From Brachybacterium sillae (GTDB lineage Bacteria; Actinomycetota; Actinomycetes; Actinomycetales; Dermabacteraceae), in contig NZ_JAFEUW010000001.1 of the NCBI RefSeq assembly GCF_025028335.1, positions 124,001 through 188,000 on the forward strand: a stretch of DNA of 64,000 nucleotides, read 5' to 3'. Positions 57,462-64,000 of this stretch are shown in pieces; within the stretch, counting starts at the first letter, position 1; each line of letters starts with the position of its first letter. The position numbers and the translations under genes were made by a program. The notes under the pieces are model-generated. The model saw only the letters and a list, made by a program, of their open reading frames with translations, was not told the origin of the DNA and did not search any database.

Positions 57462-58253
57462 TCAGGCCGTGGCCGCCGGCGCCGGTGTGCCACTCCCCTG
57501 CTGCTCGGCCAGGCGCCGCTGGTAGCTGGGATCCAGACGCTTGAGGACACGGATGACGGTGGCCGTCACCGGGATCGCGAGGTACTGCACGGCCACCTTC
57601 CACACGAAGCCCAACAGGGTGTAGGTGAGCCAGCCGCCGACCGTGGTGATGCCGATGACGGGTGCGGCGATGGTGCAGAAGATCGCGGTGTCGACGAATT
57701 CGCCGAGGCCGCTGGAGGTGAACAGGCGGGCGATCAGGCCGCGCTCCCCGCGGCGCTCCTTCATCCGGGCCAGGACGGTGGAGTTCAGAAACTGACCCAC
57801 GAGGTAGGCGACGACGCCGGCGAGGACGATCTGCCACAGCGGGCCGACGGCGAGTTCGAGTGCCGACTGCTTGGCGCGGCCGAAGTCGTCATCCAGCCCG
57901 GGCAGGGCGATGACGACCCAGTACACGACGACAGCCAGCACGCTCATGACGAAGCCGGTGAGCACGGCGCGGCGGGCGGCACGGGGCCCGTACAGCTCGG
58001 TGATGATGTCGCCGAGGATGTAGGCCAGGGGGAAGAGGAAGAACGCGCCGTCGGTGAGCAGGTGGATCCCGGTGCCGGGGATGGTGCCGAAATCGACGGC
58101 CTTGCCGCCGCCGATCCCCGAGAGGATCACGACGACCGACAACAGCGCGGTGAGGATGTCCAGGTTCGAGTGCCCCCGGTCGGCGTAGACGGCGCCGACC
58201 GGGCGTCCAGACCCGGGCGCGGGGACGGAAGGGGCAGGGTGGTGCATGGTCAT
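57462..58253 (-). CDS. yhhQ: Queuosine precursor transporter, YhhQ/VUT family
   Basis: A 263-residue membrane protein of the YhhQ family, which imports queuosine precursors such as preQ0 or preQ1. Hallmarks are LSGIGGGKAVDFG, FPLAYILGDIITELYGPRAARRAV, YLVGQFLNSTVLARMKERRG and SSGLGEFVDTAIFCTIA. Six hydrophobic helices are visible. Two in-frame ATGs (58253, 58247) are possible; the first lies 6 nt from TAGGGT and is preferred. No tgt or que gene lies in the window. Confidence 0.9.
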   Translation of the reverse strand: MTMHHPAPSVPAPGSGRPVGAVYADRGHSNLDILTALLSVVVILSGIGGGKAVDFGTIPGTGIHLLTDGAFFLFPLAYILGDIITELYGPRAARRAVLTGFVMSVLAVVVYWVVIALPGLDDDFGRAKQSALELAVGPLWQIVLAGVVAYLVGQFLNSTVLARMKERRGERGLIARLFTSSGLGEFVDTAIFCTIAAPVIGITTVGGWLTYTLLGFVWKVAVQYLAIPVTATVIRVLKRLDPSYQRRLAEQQGSGTPAPAATA

Positions 58254-59178: not shown

Positions 59179-59871
59179 TCACTCCCCTGCCGGTGCAGCG
59201 GTGCCCTCGGCGTGTCGGGTGCAGGGCCCGGGGCCGTCGACGAAGGCCCGCAGGCTCCCGAGGATCAGCTCCGGGGCGATGTCGGTGACGTCCTCGCCCT
59301 GCAGGTGCTCGCGCACCATCAGATCCACGTAGATGCCGATGACGAGCTCGGCGAGCGACGGCAGCGGAATGAGTGGGCGGTCCCCTGTTGCCGCCATGCC
59401 GCGCTCCAGGGTGTGCGCGATCTCCGCCTGCAGGCGACCGCGTTGCGCCGCCAGGCGCTCGCGGGCGCTGTCGGAACGCAGCGCATGGGAGACGGCCTCG
59501 GAATACAGCAGGTACCACTGCCGGCCGAAGGGGCGGATGGCGGCGAAGACATCGACCATCGGTTGGTCGGCCCGCAGCCCCGACGGCTGATCGGACAGGC
59601 CGCGCGGCTCCTGCGGCACACTGTCGCGCACCAGAGCGCAGACCTCGTCGGTGACGGTCTCGAACAGGGCGTCGAACAGCTCCTCCTTGGAGGAGAAGTT
59701 CGAGTAGAAAGCGCCCCGTGTGAACCCGGCGGCGGAGACGAGGTCATCGATCGTCGCGGCATCCAGGCCCTTCTCCACGAACACCGGCAGGGACGCGCGG
59801 ACCAACCGCATCCGGGTGGCGGCCCGACCCCGCGGGCTCTCCTGCCCCGCCGCCTCGAAGATGTCGGTCAC
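59179..59871 (-). CDS. TetR family transcriptional regulator
   Basis: A 230-residue TetR-type repressor. The N-terminal HTH is PVFVEKGLDAATIDDLVSAAGFTRGAFYSNFSSKEELFDAL (residues ~29-68). The C-terminal ligand-binding helices are not assignable to a subfamily. The GTG at 59871 has a GAGGAG SD. It is divergent from the MMPL transporter and very probably represses it and itself through the palindrome at 59923-59957. Confidence 0.92.
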   Translation of the reverse strand: MTDIFEAAGQESPRGRAATRMRLVRASLPVFVEKGLDAATIDDLVSAAGFTRGAFYSNFSSKEELFDALFETVTDEVCALVRDSVPQEPRGLSDQPSGLRADQPMVDVFAAIRPFGRQWYLLYSEAVSHALRSDSARERLAAQRGRLQAEIAHTLERGMAATGDRPLIPLPSLAELVIGIYVDLMVREHLQGEDVTDIAPELILGSLRAFVDGPGPCTRHAEGTAAPAGE

Positions 59872-60034: not shown

Positions 60035-62746
60035 ATGTCCTCCACCCTGTACCGGCTCGGACGCGCCGCCGCCGCGCGGCCATGGCGGGTGATCGGCGTC
60101 TGGACACTGATCGCCCTGATCCTCGGCGCGCTGGCCCTGGGGCTCGGTGGTCGGTTCGAGGAGGCCCTGGAGATCCCCGGCACGGAGGCACAGCAGGGTC
60201 TGGACACCCTCGCCGTGCGTCTGCCGGAGATGAGCGGCACCAGCGGCCAGATGGTGCTGACCACCACGGACGGCAGTCCCATCGCGGATCACGCCGAGGA
60301 GGTCGGCGCGATCATGGGCCGCGCCGCGGAGGTCGAGGGCGTGGTCGCCGCCCCCGATCCCTTCGATGACCTCACCCCCGGCACCGTCTCCTCCGACGGC
60401 ACAGCGATCATCGCGAACGTGCAGCTGGAGGGCGGCCTCGGGGAGTTCCCCACCACCACCGTGCCGCAGCTCGAGGAGATCGTCGACGGCGTCGACGCCC
60501 CGCTCCAGGCCCATCTCGGGGGGCAGCTGCTGCAGGCGACCACGTTGCCGTTCAGCATCGCCGAGGTGATCGGTCTGATCGCCGCGATCGTCATCCTCAC
60601 CGTGACCTTCCGCGCGATCCTTCCCGCCGCGCTGCCGGTGGTCACCGCCCTCACCGGCATCGTCGTGGCGATGAGCGCGGTGCTGGCCCTCGCCGCCGGG
60701 GTGGCGATCCCCTCGGTGACCACCACCCTCGCGATCATGCTCGGCCTCGCCGTCGGCATCGACTACGCCATGTTCCTCGTCACCCGCCACCGCGACGGGC
60801 TGGGTGACGGTCTGGAACCGCAGGAGGCCGCCGCCCGCGCCGTCGCCACCAGCGGCAGCGCCGTCATCTTCGCCGGCCTCACGGTGATCATCGCGCTGGT
60901 GGGTCTGTTTCTCACCGGCATCCCCTTCCTGACCGTGATGGGTCTGGCCTCCGCCTTCACCGTGGCCGTGGCCGTGGCCCTGGCGGTCACGCTGCTGCCG
61001 GCGCTCTTCGGGCTGGCCGGCAAGCGGATGCGCCCGCGCGCCCGCCGCACCCACGCCGCGTCCCCCGATCCGGGCCGGCGCGGCCTCGCCTCCCGCTGGG
61101 TGCGGCTCGTCACCGCGGTGCCGACCCTCACCATCGTCCTGGTGCTGGTGGGGCTCGGTGCCCTCGCCGTGCCGGCGAAGGATCTGCGTCTGGCCCTGCC
61201 CGACAACGGCACCGAACGGCCCGACACCCGCGCCCGCCAGACCTACGACCTCATCACCGAGCGCTTCGGGGCCGGATACAACGGGCCGCTCCTGGTCACC
61301 GCGGACATCATCACCTCCACCGACCCCCTCGGCACCGTCGACGATCTGTCCTCCCGCCTGGAGGCCCTGGATGGAGTCCAGGAGGTGCAGTTGGCCACCC
61401 CCAACCGCGGCGCCGACATGGCGGTGGTCGTCGTGATCCCCACGACCGGTCCGAACGACCCCGCCACCACGCAGCTGGTCGACCGGATCCGCGCCGACCG
61501 CCCCGCCTGGGAGGAGGAGCTCGGCGTCACTGACCTCACCGTCACCGGGCAGGCCGCCGCCGGCATCGACATCACGCAGAAGCTGACGGCGGCGATGCTG
61601 CCGTTCGTGCTGTTCGTGGTCGGGCTGTCGCTGGTGCTGCTGACGATCGTGTTCCGGTCTCTGTGGGTGCCGCTGAAGGCCACCCTCGGTTTCCTGCTGT
61701 CCCTCGGGGCGGCCTTCGGTGCCGTCAGCCTGGTGTTCCTCCACGGCTGGGGCAACGAGACCCTGAACGTCCACGTGATCGGCCCGGTCATCGCGTTCAT
61801 GCCGATCATCACCATGGGTGTGCTCTTCGGTCTCGCCATGGACTACGAGGTGTTCCTCGTGACCCGCATGCGCGAGGAGTACGTGCACGGGGCCGGTGCC
61901 CGCGAGGCGGTGGAGAAGGGCTTCACCGCCAGTGCCTCCGTGGTGGTGGCCGCGGCCCTGATCATGATCTCGGTGTTCACCTCGTTCATCCCCGAGAGCA
62001 CCTTCATGATCCAGCCGATCGCGCTGGCGCTCGCCGTCGGCATCGCGGTCGACGCCTTCGTCGTGCGCATGACCCTGGTGCCGGCGGTCCTGGCGCTGCT
62101 GGGCGACCGCGCCTGGCACATGCCGCGCGCCCTGGATCGGGTGCTGCCGTCTGTGGACGTGGAGGGTGAGGGTCTCGTCGGGCTGCTGGAGCACGACCGG
62201 TGGCGGCGGGAGAACCCGGGCGTCGGCATCCGCCTCGAGGGGGTGCGCGCCCCCGGCCTCGCGCCCCTGGACGCCCGGGTCGATGAGGGCACCGTCCTGG
62301 TGCTCACCGGGGACGACGTCTCCGCGCGCCGCACCGCCCTGGGACTGCTCGCCGGCCGCGTGCTCCCGCAGGGCGGCATGGTGGCCGTGGCCGACCGCCT
62401 CTCCCCCGTCGACGCGAACCGCCTGCGCGCCCGCACCCACTGGGTCAGTGACCCCACCGCGGCCCAGCTGGAGCGGTTGCGGCCGGCGCAGCTGCGCGGC
62501 CGCACGGTCCTCCTCACCGGCCCCGGAGACAGTGCGCAGGCACCGGAACTCGCCGCCGCGCTGCAGCGCGCCCTCGACCATGGCGCGACGGTCGTCGTCG
62601 GCGGTGACACGGGATCCGCCGCGGCGCTTGTCGATGCCCTGCGGGAGCTGCGGATCCCGGTGCAGACCCTCCCGGTGCTCCGCCACCGGCCCGCTGATGC
62701 CTCCTCCCCCATCCCGATCGCCTCTGCAGAAGGAGTCCGCGCATGA
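60035..62746 (+). CDS. MMPL transporter with degenerate ABC-ATPase-like C terminus
   Basis: A 903-residue RND-superfamily MMPL transporter. Two halves each carry a periplasmic-like domain and a helix bundle: LGLAVGIDYAMFLVTRHRDG and FGLAMDYEVFLVTRMREEY are the proton-relay GxxxDY segments. The final ~170 residues (from about 731) follow the order of an ABC ATPase, with RLEGVRAPGLAPLDARVDEGTVL, LLAGRVLPQGGMVAV and later LERLRPAQLRGRTVLL. Its P-loop is replaced by TGDDVSARRTAL, so ATP hydrolysis is not expected. The ATG at 60035 has a GGGGAAG SD. It exports hydrophobic or cationic compounds in relatives; the TetR gene next to it suggests induction by a toxic ligand. Confidence 0.88.
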   Translation: MSSTLYRLGRAAAARPWRVIGVWTLIALILGALALGLGGRFEEALEIPGTEAQQGLDTLAVRLPEMSGTSGQMVLTTTDGSPIADHAEEVGAIMGRAAEVEGVVAAPDPFDDLTPGTVSSDGTAIIANVQLEGGLGEFPTTTVPQLEEIVDGVDAPLQAHLGGQLLQATTLPFSIAEVIGLIAAIVILTVTFRAILPAALPVVTALTGIVVAMSAVLALAAGVAIPSVTTTLAIMLGLAVGIDYAMFLVTRHRDGLGDGLEPQEAAARAVATSGSAVIFAGLTVIIALVGLFLTGIPFLTVMGLASAFTVAVAVALAVTLLPALFGLAGKRMRPRARRTHAASPDPGRRGLASRWVRLVTAVPTLTIVLVLVGLGALAVPAKDLRLALPDNGTERPDTRARQTYDLITERFGAGYNGPLLVTADIITSTDPLGTVDDLSSRLEALDGVQEVQLATPNRGADMAVVVVIPTTGPNDPATTQLVDRIRADRPAWEEELGVTDLTVTGQAAAGIDITQKLTAAMLPFVLFVVGLSLVLLTIVFRSLWVPLKATLGFLLSLGAAFGAVSLVFLHGWGNETLNVHVIGPVIAFMPIITMGVLFGLAMDYEVFLVTRMREEYVHGAGAREAVEKGFTASASVVVAAALIMISVFTSFIPESTFMIQPIALALAVGIAVDAFVVRMTLVPAVLALLGDRAWHMPRALDRVLPSVDVEGEGLVGLLEHDRWRRENPGVGIRLEGVRAPGLAPLDARVDEGTVLVLTGDDVSARRTALGLLAGRVLPQGGMVAVADRLSPVDANRLRARTHWVSDPTAAQLERLRPAQLRGRTVLLTGPGDSAQAPELAAALQRALDHGATVVVGGDTGSAAALVDALRELRIPVQTLPVLRHRPADASSPIPIASAEGVRA

Positions 62747-64000
62747 ACCGCCTGCGGTCCCCGCTGGTCATCCTCGCCGCTCTGGTCCCGCTGCTCGTCG
62801 CCGGGATCGGGGTGTGGGGCCTGTCCGGCCGTGCCGACGCCCTCGACCGGGTTCCCGCCGCCGTGGTGAACCTCGACCGCGGCACCACCCTCACCACCCC
62901 CGACGGCGAGGAGCAGTTCGTGCCGTTCGGTCGTCTGCTCACCGCCGGGCTCACCCGCCCCGCCGACGCCTCCGCGATGACGGCCGGCACCTCCGGGGCC
63001 TCCGACGCCGGCGGGGCCTCCGACGCGGGCGGACGTGACGGCGACGCCGGGCAGGACCTCGAGGAGCAGGTCGCCGACGGTGAGACCGCCGGTTTCGACT
63101 GGACGCTCACCGATGAGACGGAGGCCCGTGCCGGTCTGCGCTCGGGTCGATACGCCGCGGTGATCATCATCCCCGCCGACTTCAGCGACCGCCTCGGCAC
63201 CCTCGGCACCCCCGATGCCCGCCAGGCCCGTATCGAGGTCCTCACCGACGACTCCTCCGGCGCCCTCGACGGGGTGATCGGCACGGTGATCGCCGAGGCC
63301 GCCACCCGCACCCTCGGCACCGGTCTCACCGAGCAGTATCTCGACGGGGTGTACGTCGGGTTCAACGACATCCAGGCCGGATACCAGCAGGCCGCCGACG
63401 GCGCCGACGACCTCACCGGCGGCGCGGATGACCTCTCCCAGGGGGCCCGGCAGTCCGCTGATGGAGCGCAGGATCTCGCCGACGGCGTCGGCCAGTACGC
63501 CGAGGGTGCGGACCAGTACGCCGACGGCGTGGACCAGTACGCCGATGGTGCCGACCAGTACGCGGACGGCATGCGCCGGTTCGACGACGGGGTGCAGCAG
63601 ACCGCCGACGGTACCGGCCAGCTCGCCGGTGGCCTCGACCAGCTCGCCGACGGTGGTGACGAGCTCGCCACCGGGACCCGTGACCTCTCCGGGGGTCTCG
63701 CTGCGGTGGCCGGCGGCGCCGACCAGGTCGCCGGTGGTGCGGGCGGTCTCGCCGACGGCACCGCCCGCCTGCGGACCGGAGCCTCCGACCTGGCCACCGG
63801 CGCCGACCAGCTCGCGACCGGTCTCGATCAGCTGTCGACCGGGGCCGACCAGGTCGCCTCCGGGACCGCCGAGGTGCGCGACGGCCTCAGCGGCACCGAG
63901 GACCAGCCGGGCCTGGTGCCCGGTGCCCAGCAGCTCGCCGAGGGTGTCGCCGGGGACGGCACCGCCCAGAACCCCGGCCTGGTGGCCGGCGCCGACCAGC
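62743..64000 (+). CDS. YhgE/Pip-family membrane protein, 3' end outside window
   Basis: About 419 residues are visible. A single N-terminal membrane helix (SPLVILAALVPLLVAGIGVWGL) is followed by a YhgE/Pip extracellular region: PAAVVNLDRGTTL, FDWTLTDETEARAGLRSGRYAAVIIIPADFS, and IEVLTDDSSGA. From residue ~220 a series of seven-residue units such as ADQYADG and LADGTGQLAGG predicts a long rigid helix or coiled coil. Members span the membrane again at the C terminus and are linked to phage infection and to export. ATG 62743 overlaps the MMPL stop (ATGA), so the two proteins are made together. Confidence 0.88.
   Translation, partial: MNRLRSPLVILAALVPLLVAGIGVWGLSGRADALDRVPAAVVNLDRGTTLTTPDGEEQFVPFGRLLTAGLTRPADASAMTAGTSGASDAGGASDAGGRDGDAGQDLEEQVADGETAGFDWTLTDETEARAGLRSGRYAAVIIIPADFSDRLGTLGTPDARQARIEVLTDDSSGALDGVIGTVIAEAATRTLGTGLTEQYLDGVYVGFNDIQAGYQQAADGADDLTGGADDLSQGARQSADGAQDLADGVGQYAEGADQYADGVDQYADGADQYADGMRRFDDGVQQTADGTGQLAGGLDQLADGGDELATGTRDLSGGLAAVAGGADQVAGGAGGLADGTARLRTGASDLATGADQLATGLDQLSTGADQVASGTAEVRDGLSGTEDQPGLVPGAQQLAEGVAGDGTAQNPGLVAGADQ
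63473..63570 (+). repeat. 21-bp tandem repeats in the YhgE-like gene
   Basis: Near-perfect 21-bp units encode repeated GADQYAD-type heptads (for example GACCAGTACGCCGACGGC is recurrent). They arise from slippage and can change the helix length between strains. Confidence 0.7.

Follow-up and report, generated by a model that had tools for sequence, protein, structure and literature searches.

The window, a 64,000-nucleotide (nt) stretch from the 2.67-Mb genome of the actinobacterium Brachybacterium sillae, carries a transporter gene of the MMPL family whose product ends in an additional folded domain. The open reading frame (ORF) occupies 60035–62746 on the forward strand, from an ATG at 60035 to a stop codon at 62744–62746, and encodes 903 residues. 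Its body is covered by the Pfam family MMPL PF03176 (E = 2.2e-82, 277 bits, cut-off 20.5), and the last approximately 175 residues, which open after a conserved DVEGEG motif, make up a tail. The stop codon overlaps the start of a gene for a protein of the YhgE/Pip family (Table 1). Our analysis identifies the tail as a degenerate nucleotide-binding domain (NBD) of the ATP-binding cassette (ABC) type and suggests that it may serve as a dock for the YhgE/Pip protein.

Table 1 Features of the MMPL–YhgE locus, in window positions.
Feature	Position	Strand	Basis
TetR-type regulator, divergent from the MMPL gene	59179..59871	-	ORF, start codon picked by eye
MMPL/RND transporter core	60035..62149	+	Pfam MMPL 2.2e-82
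First Asp-Tyr pair (GIDY), D243-Y244, putative proton-relay position	60755..60766	+	Sequence and alignment
Second Asp-Tyr pair (MDYE), D603-Y604	61838..61849	+	Sequence and alignment
Linker helix with conserved DVEGEG...W motif	62150..62215	+	D, E, G and W conserved in family alignments; helix 4-21 in tail model
Predicted degenerate ABC nucleotide-binding domain (pseudo-NBD)	62216..62686	+	Predicted model and profile match
Degenerate Walker A, GDDVSARR for GxxxxGKS	62309..62332	+	Alignment with relatives
18-residue remnant of helical subdomain	62450..62503	+	Model and relatives L195-L200
Walker B Asp position, here Gly	62519..62521	+	Alignment with relatives
ATGA overlap of MMPL stop and YhgE start	62743..62746	+	Sequence
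YhgE/Pip gene	62743..63999, continuing past the window (991 residues in total)	+	L034:3743-6718; ABC2_membrane_3 match

Predicted structure identifies the tail, with near certainty, as an ABC NBD that lacks the helical subdomain. An AlphaFold2 model, built with 64 sequences in the alignment, has a mean predicted local distance difference test score (pLDDT) of 89.8 and a predicted template modelling score (pTM) of 0.83. Comparison of this model with VIA-align places ABC ATPases on top, with 4yer at Z = 15.8 (146 residues aligned at 2.5 Å) and FtsE (6z67) at Z = 14.9, and both elements of the NBD fold, the RecA-like core and the beta subdomain, are present. Foldseek returns 493 PDB matches at E ≤ 0.001, with CbiO and FtsE first (best 1.8e-7); nearly all of the best 50 are titled ABC ATPases, at TM-scores of about 0.5. 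A profile of 64 tails matches 391 distinct PDB sequences at E ≤ 0.01, and inspection of the best 60 of these finds ABC ATPases, including EcfA (1.5e-10) and MlaF (4.1e-10). Scanned alone, the window tail gives weak ABC matches only (CydD 1.5e-6, CcmA 0.0028), and no Pfam family reaches its own cut-off on it in a scan of the MMPL protein; the non-ABC Pfam matches HEM4 (0.029), GGDEF_2 (0.04) and Peripla_BP_6 (0.044), none near its cut-off, were discarded as chance. A preliminary description of this DNA had called the tail ABC-ATPase-like and had set fold comparison of its predicted structure beforehand as the refutation test; the comparison recovers the ABC NBD fold, and the claim stands. The domain start given there, 62225, is in frame on the forward strand, but the linker helix begins already near 62150, and the NBD core runs from approximately 62216 to 62686.

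By its residues, the window tail is dead as an ATPase. In alignment with relatives, the Walker A motif GxxxxGK[ST] is absent, with GDDVSARR in its place, and the position after the Walker B Asp, where the catalytic Glu would lie, is Pro. The helical subdomain that carries the LSGGQ signature is gone, leaving 18 residues between strands (model residues 101–118); at this position, the helical subdomain is still there in relatives L195–L200 and carries a signature-like motif. The earlier remark that the tail has no usable P-loop is thus borne out in the window, and Walker A is missing from 125 of 140 distinct tails.

Presence of the tail in 34 of the 36 genomes of the genus excludes a chance origin; the two misses are drafts, 81 and 88% complete. 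The domain has a class-wide distribution in Actinomycetes: an order-wide draw of 297 genomes gives matches into the tail (model position ≥200) in ten family codes, as read by eye from the table, and a class-wide draw of 394 genomes gives matches in three further family codes (f35, f45 and f57). The 140 distinct tails comprise 15 with Walker A, one with only its GKS end (L118, Bifidobacterium panos) and 124 with neither; L069 reads GGH after the P-loop helix, yet has Walker A. Tails with intact Walker A include those of Amycolatopsis azurea (L169) and Kutzneria (L138). The Walker B Asp is present in all 15 Walker-A tails and, read by eye, is followed by Asp in 14 and by His in one, never by the catalytic Glu. 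Eight of the 15 (L195–L200, L204 and L205) also retain the helical subdomain, in which, again by eye, signature-like motifs such as LSRLERK replace LSGGQ. One full relative NBD, with both Walker A and helical subdomain, scores 60.3 bits against Pfam ABC_tran, and tails from the Pseudonocardiaceae Kutzneria, Amycolatopsis and Pseudonocardia score 30.9–34.8 (cut-off 25). Through such full NBDs with canonical Walker A, the degenerate tail is connected to genuine ABC domains. In L116, L121, L148, L174 and others, Walker A is gone and the long domain is retained. The relatives therefore show all stages, with the window tail at one end of the series. The tail of L154 (Saccharopolyspora ipomoeae) is a catalytic mosaic that has lost Walker A but still shows VDELD in the Walker B place and VTHQ where the H-loop lies.

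In a FastTree tree of 158 MMPL cores, all tailed proteins fall on one side of one branch (L050, L083, L152, L163, L165, cores shorter than 550 residues and identical cores were left out). The clade on that side holds 135 rows, of which 118 have degenerate tails, 15 have Walker A and two are tailless. The distribution of Walker A needs seven changes on this tree, at least five of them forced by starred branches, and regain of a lost Walker A appears unlikely. Intact Walker A and full helical subdomains in some tails suggest repeated decay of the nucleotide site in a domain that was itself retained. Nested within the tailed clade is the tailless pair L175 and L176, sister to L204 and L205, which have Walker A. 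An IQ-TREE tree of 38 rows is consistent with this, and on it the alternative of holding all tailless rows together is rejected by the approximately unbiased (AU) test at p = 0.033, for a group chosen after the first tree. The trees are not truly rooted, and gain is told from loss by parsimony; read in this way, the tailed MMPLs are one clade of Actinomycetes, with a single lineage inside it that lacks both tail and YhgE. Among the 30 closest pairs within the genus, the ratio of nonsynonymous to synonymous substitution rates (dN/dS) is 0.18–0.78 for the tail and 0.06–0.42 for the core. The tail ratio is below 1 in 30 of 30 pairs, placing the tail under purifying selection, and at about twice the ratio of the core its constraint is relaxed.

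The tail and YhgE go together. The 169 MMPL loci examined consist of 140 distinct tailed loci, 25 tailless loci, two duplicates, which were dropped (L095 of Brachybacterium epidermidis = L039, and L136 = L061), and two loci set aside with the contig ending within the tail (L152 and L165). Tailed loci were selected by similarity to MMPL and tail, blind to YhgE; the tailless ones are 20 chosen by hand from the order-wide table and five found within a set of 80 loci. YhgE lies downstream on the same strand at 140 of the 140 tailed loci and at none of the 25 tailless ones. At the nested tailless pair L175 and L176, YhgE is absent and other genes lie downstream. The four-base overlap between MMPL and YhgE recurs in 56 of 74 named loci, as called by a script with a preference for the start codon closest to where MMPL ends, which favours overlap. 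The preliminary description had suspected a link between tail and YhgE-like protein and proposed a search for the same architecture beside YhgE genes; these neighbourhoods strongly support the link, and from them we infer that the tail binds YhgE.

Several observations on these loci stand apart. In L083 and L163, the MMPL ORF leaves the tail frame and continues for about 900 residues without a stop, possibly a frameshift or assembly error; YhgE is downstream there too. In L050, from the same genus (genome 85% complete), MMPL, tail and YhgE are split over several ORFs, which may reflect a pseudogene or sequencing errors. Five of the 25 tailless MMPL ORFs (L147, L178, L179, L181 and L188) match full-length YhgE queries at E-values of 1e-4 to 9e-12, and none of the five matches the YhgE N- or C-terminal domain alone; the match probably comes from an xxxLxxG coiled coil that these pumps themselves contain. 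Most genomes of the genus have a second YhgE gene elsewhere, and the window genome shows only the one beside MMPL. At three YhgE loci away from tailed MMPLs (L092, L093 and L094), no ORF with a P-loop and an LSGG-type signature was found in 9–14 kb, so YhgE seems to be without a dedicated ATPase there too.

YhgE is, on profile matches and predicted fold, an ABC-2-type permease. The protein of the window organism scores 40.8 bits against Pfam ABC2_membrane_3 (cut-off 31.6), and 91.8 and 95.9 bits against the N- and C-terminal YhgE/Pip models (cut-offs 96.15 and 102.2); most relatives exceed the N-terminal cut-off. The fold was tested on a short relative, the YhgE of L148, which scores 83 bits across the whole ABC2_membrane_3 model. 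Its predicted structure (pLDDT 84.4, pTM 0.65) has a membrane part that matches ABCG2 at Z = 18.9 over 190 residues at 2.2 Å, and the 50 structural matches listed are ABCG, ABCH or PDR-type exporters. Foldseek is weaker, with four matches at E ≤ 0.001, three of them ABCH chains and one a chain of an MmpL5 complex. Pip-family relatives are already noted in print as ABC-2 superfamily homologues (PMC3924187). With YhgE ABC-2-like, the gene that follows the NBD-like tail codes for the very class of membrane protein that NBDs drive, and the ancestral partner of the tail NBD was therefore probably YhgE.

The pump itself looks alive, and proton-driven transport is predicted. From their pattern, we take the GIDY and MDYE motifs of the window protein to match the MmpL3 relay positions. 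By strict motif, both Asp-Tyr pairs are found in 123 of 133 tailed cores; an apparent loss of the first pair in the other ten is an artefact of the motif pattern, as nine have the pair when aligned and L074 is unalignable there. In MmpL3, these pairs are named as the proton-relay residues (PMC10171966). In Saccharopolyspora hirsuta, the genes annotated as YhgE/Pip (F1721_04135) and MMPL (F1721_04140) are induced 3.82- and 3.33-fold by cholesterol (PMC9782250), and the tail is seen in two other Saccharopolyspora loci (L130 and L154).

A worn-down NBD that always lies beside a matching, channel-like partner suggests that two transporter types have merged into one machine. Our favoured reading, to which we give a probability of roughly 0.6, is that the tail derives from an NBD and is the dock through which the proton-driven pump holds or drives its ABC-2-like YhgE/Pip partner. 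The NBD of an ABC-2 exporter sits beneath the membrane part and moves it. Such an NBD would have been transferred to the cytoplasmic end of a proton-driven RND-type pump, and the matching ABC-2-type membrane part would be YhgE/Pip from the next, overlapping gene. The ancestral tail probably still bound ATP; ATP use may then have become dispensable and been lost many times, with the joint between pump and permease kept. In Brachybacterium, whose tail has lost both the ATP site and the helical signature subdomain, the leftover core could tether YhgE to the pump as a docking platform and may relay conformational changes between them. Physical docking, joint transport and the direction of coupling are what we infer from this arrangement: the pump may drive YhgE, the long coiled coil of YhgE may extend the path across the cell wall, or the tail may only gate.

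Some of the evidence weighs against this docking model. The association of tail and YhgE amounts to few independent events, with two changes needed on the tree, and the AU value of 0.033 for the nested loss applies to a post hoc group. The dN/dS of the tail is about twice that of the core, and its conserved positions are general structural sites of NBDs as much as docking ones. The cholesterol-induced MMPL of S. hirsuta is known from annotation and neighbouring locus tags, and its tail is presumed.

A more radical version, which we consider possible if unlikely, is a hybrid with a swapped engine, in which YhgE lost its ATPase drive and is now moved by the proton motive force through the RND pump; the former NBD of the permease, worn by the pump, would be the coupling piece. 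Lineages whose Walker A is intact would then be surviving intermediate stages, still able to sense or use ATP. There is a comparably low but real probability that the tail serves MMPL alone, in assembly or regulation, acting for example in self-association, with YhgE merely co-inherited in the operon. ABC NBDs commonly dimerise. The C-terminal domain that MmpL3 has in the cytoplasm is non-essential and has roles in localisation and interactions (PMC10171966). However, no tailed locus among the 140 lacks YhgE and no tailless one among the 25 has it, and YhgE belongs to the permease class that ABC NBDs serve.

Another reading makes the tail a nucleotide sensor. A tail that binds ATP without hydrolysis could gate the pump where Walker A survives, with the sensor lost from the window lineage and the rest of the domain decaying; the persistence of the Walker B Asp in all 15 of the Walker-A tails among the 140, followed in none by Glu, makes binding without efficient hydrolysis plausible. 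Most lineages, however, have lost Walker A yet kept the domain, and the window domain is well folded in its model and under purifying selection in the genus, which leaves a sensor quite improbable. That the tail is a functionless relic on its way out is very improbable indeed: its motifs are lost, its helical subdomain deleted and its evolution faster than that of the core, but dN/dS is below 1 in all 30 closest pairs, the tail is kept in 133 of the 135 clade rows and the single loss seen coincides with absence of YhgE.

Each part of this system is of a known kind; the fusion, the degeneration series and the YhgE coupling were not found in the open-licence PMC literature, PMC5417439 and PMC12584985 included, where no paper on an MMPL–NBD fusion or on the MMPL–YhgE pair as a system came up, which is weak evidence of absence. 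For the YhgE/Pip family (TIGR03061/TIGR03062), with which the partner gene shares the xxxLxxG coiled coil, we know of no ATPase partner; here, the preceding gene encodes an NBD-derived domain. The nearest precedent is DrrABC with MmpL7 in phthiocerol dimycocerosate (PDIM) export by Mycobacterium tuberculosis, a proposed case of an MmpL cooperating with a type V exporter, in which MmpL7 has been suggested as a possible scaffold, without direct evidence (PMC11539658). DrrABC has a separate ATPase with classical Walker motifs, whereas in the window the ATPase domain is fused to MMPL and degenerate; MmpL7, as described there, is without the proton-relay residues that the window MMPL keeps. Like MmpL3 and other MmpLs, the window protein combines an RND/MMPL core, Asp-Tyr pairs and an extra cytoplasmic tail, but the MmpL3 tail is reported as predicted to be disordered (PMC10171966), whereas the window tail is, in its model, a folded relative of ABC NBDs. 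ABC exporters with a degenerate nucleotide-binding site likewise keep an NBD despite lost catalytic residues (PMC12038006, PMC9898250); they retain one active site within a true ABC transporter, in contrast to the window protein, which has no intact site and carries the domain on an RND pump.

The RND and ABC superfamilies of transporters are kept apart, each with an energy source of its own. An ABC motor domain fused to an RND pump beside an ABC-2-type partner, with Walker A ranging from intact to absent in living species, provides a natural series in which to study how an energy source is swapped or lost. The widespread YhgE/Pip proteins gain a candidate partner from it, and cooperation between an MmpL and an ABC-2 exporter, as proposed for MmpL7 and DrrABC, gains a model that can be tested.

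Upstream of the pump, relatives of the TetR-type regulator are also divergent at most tailed MMPL loci. A further ORF of the window, at 57462–58253 on the reverse strand, resembles a queuosine-precursor (VUT/COG1738) transporter and is a putative member of that family.
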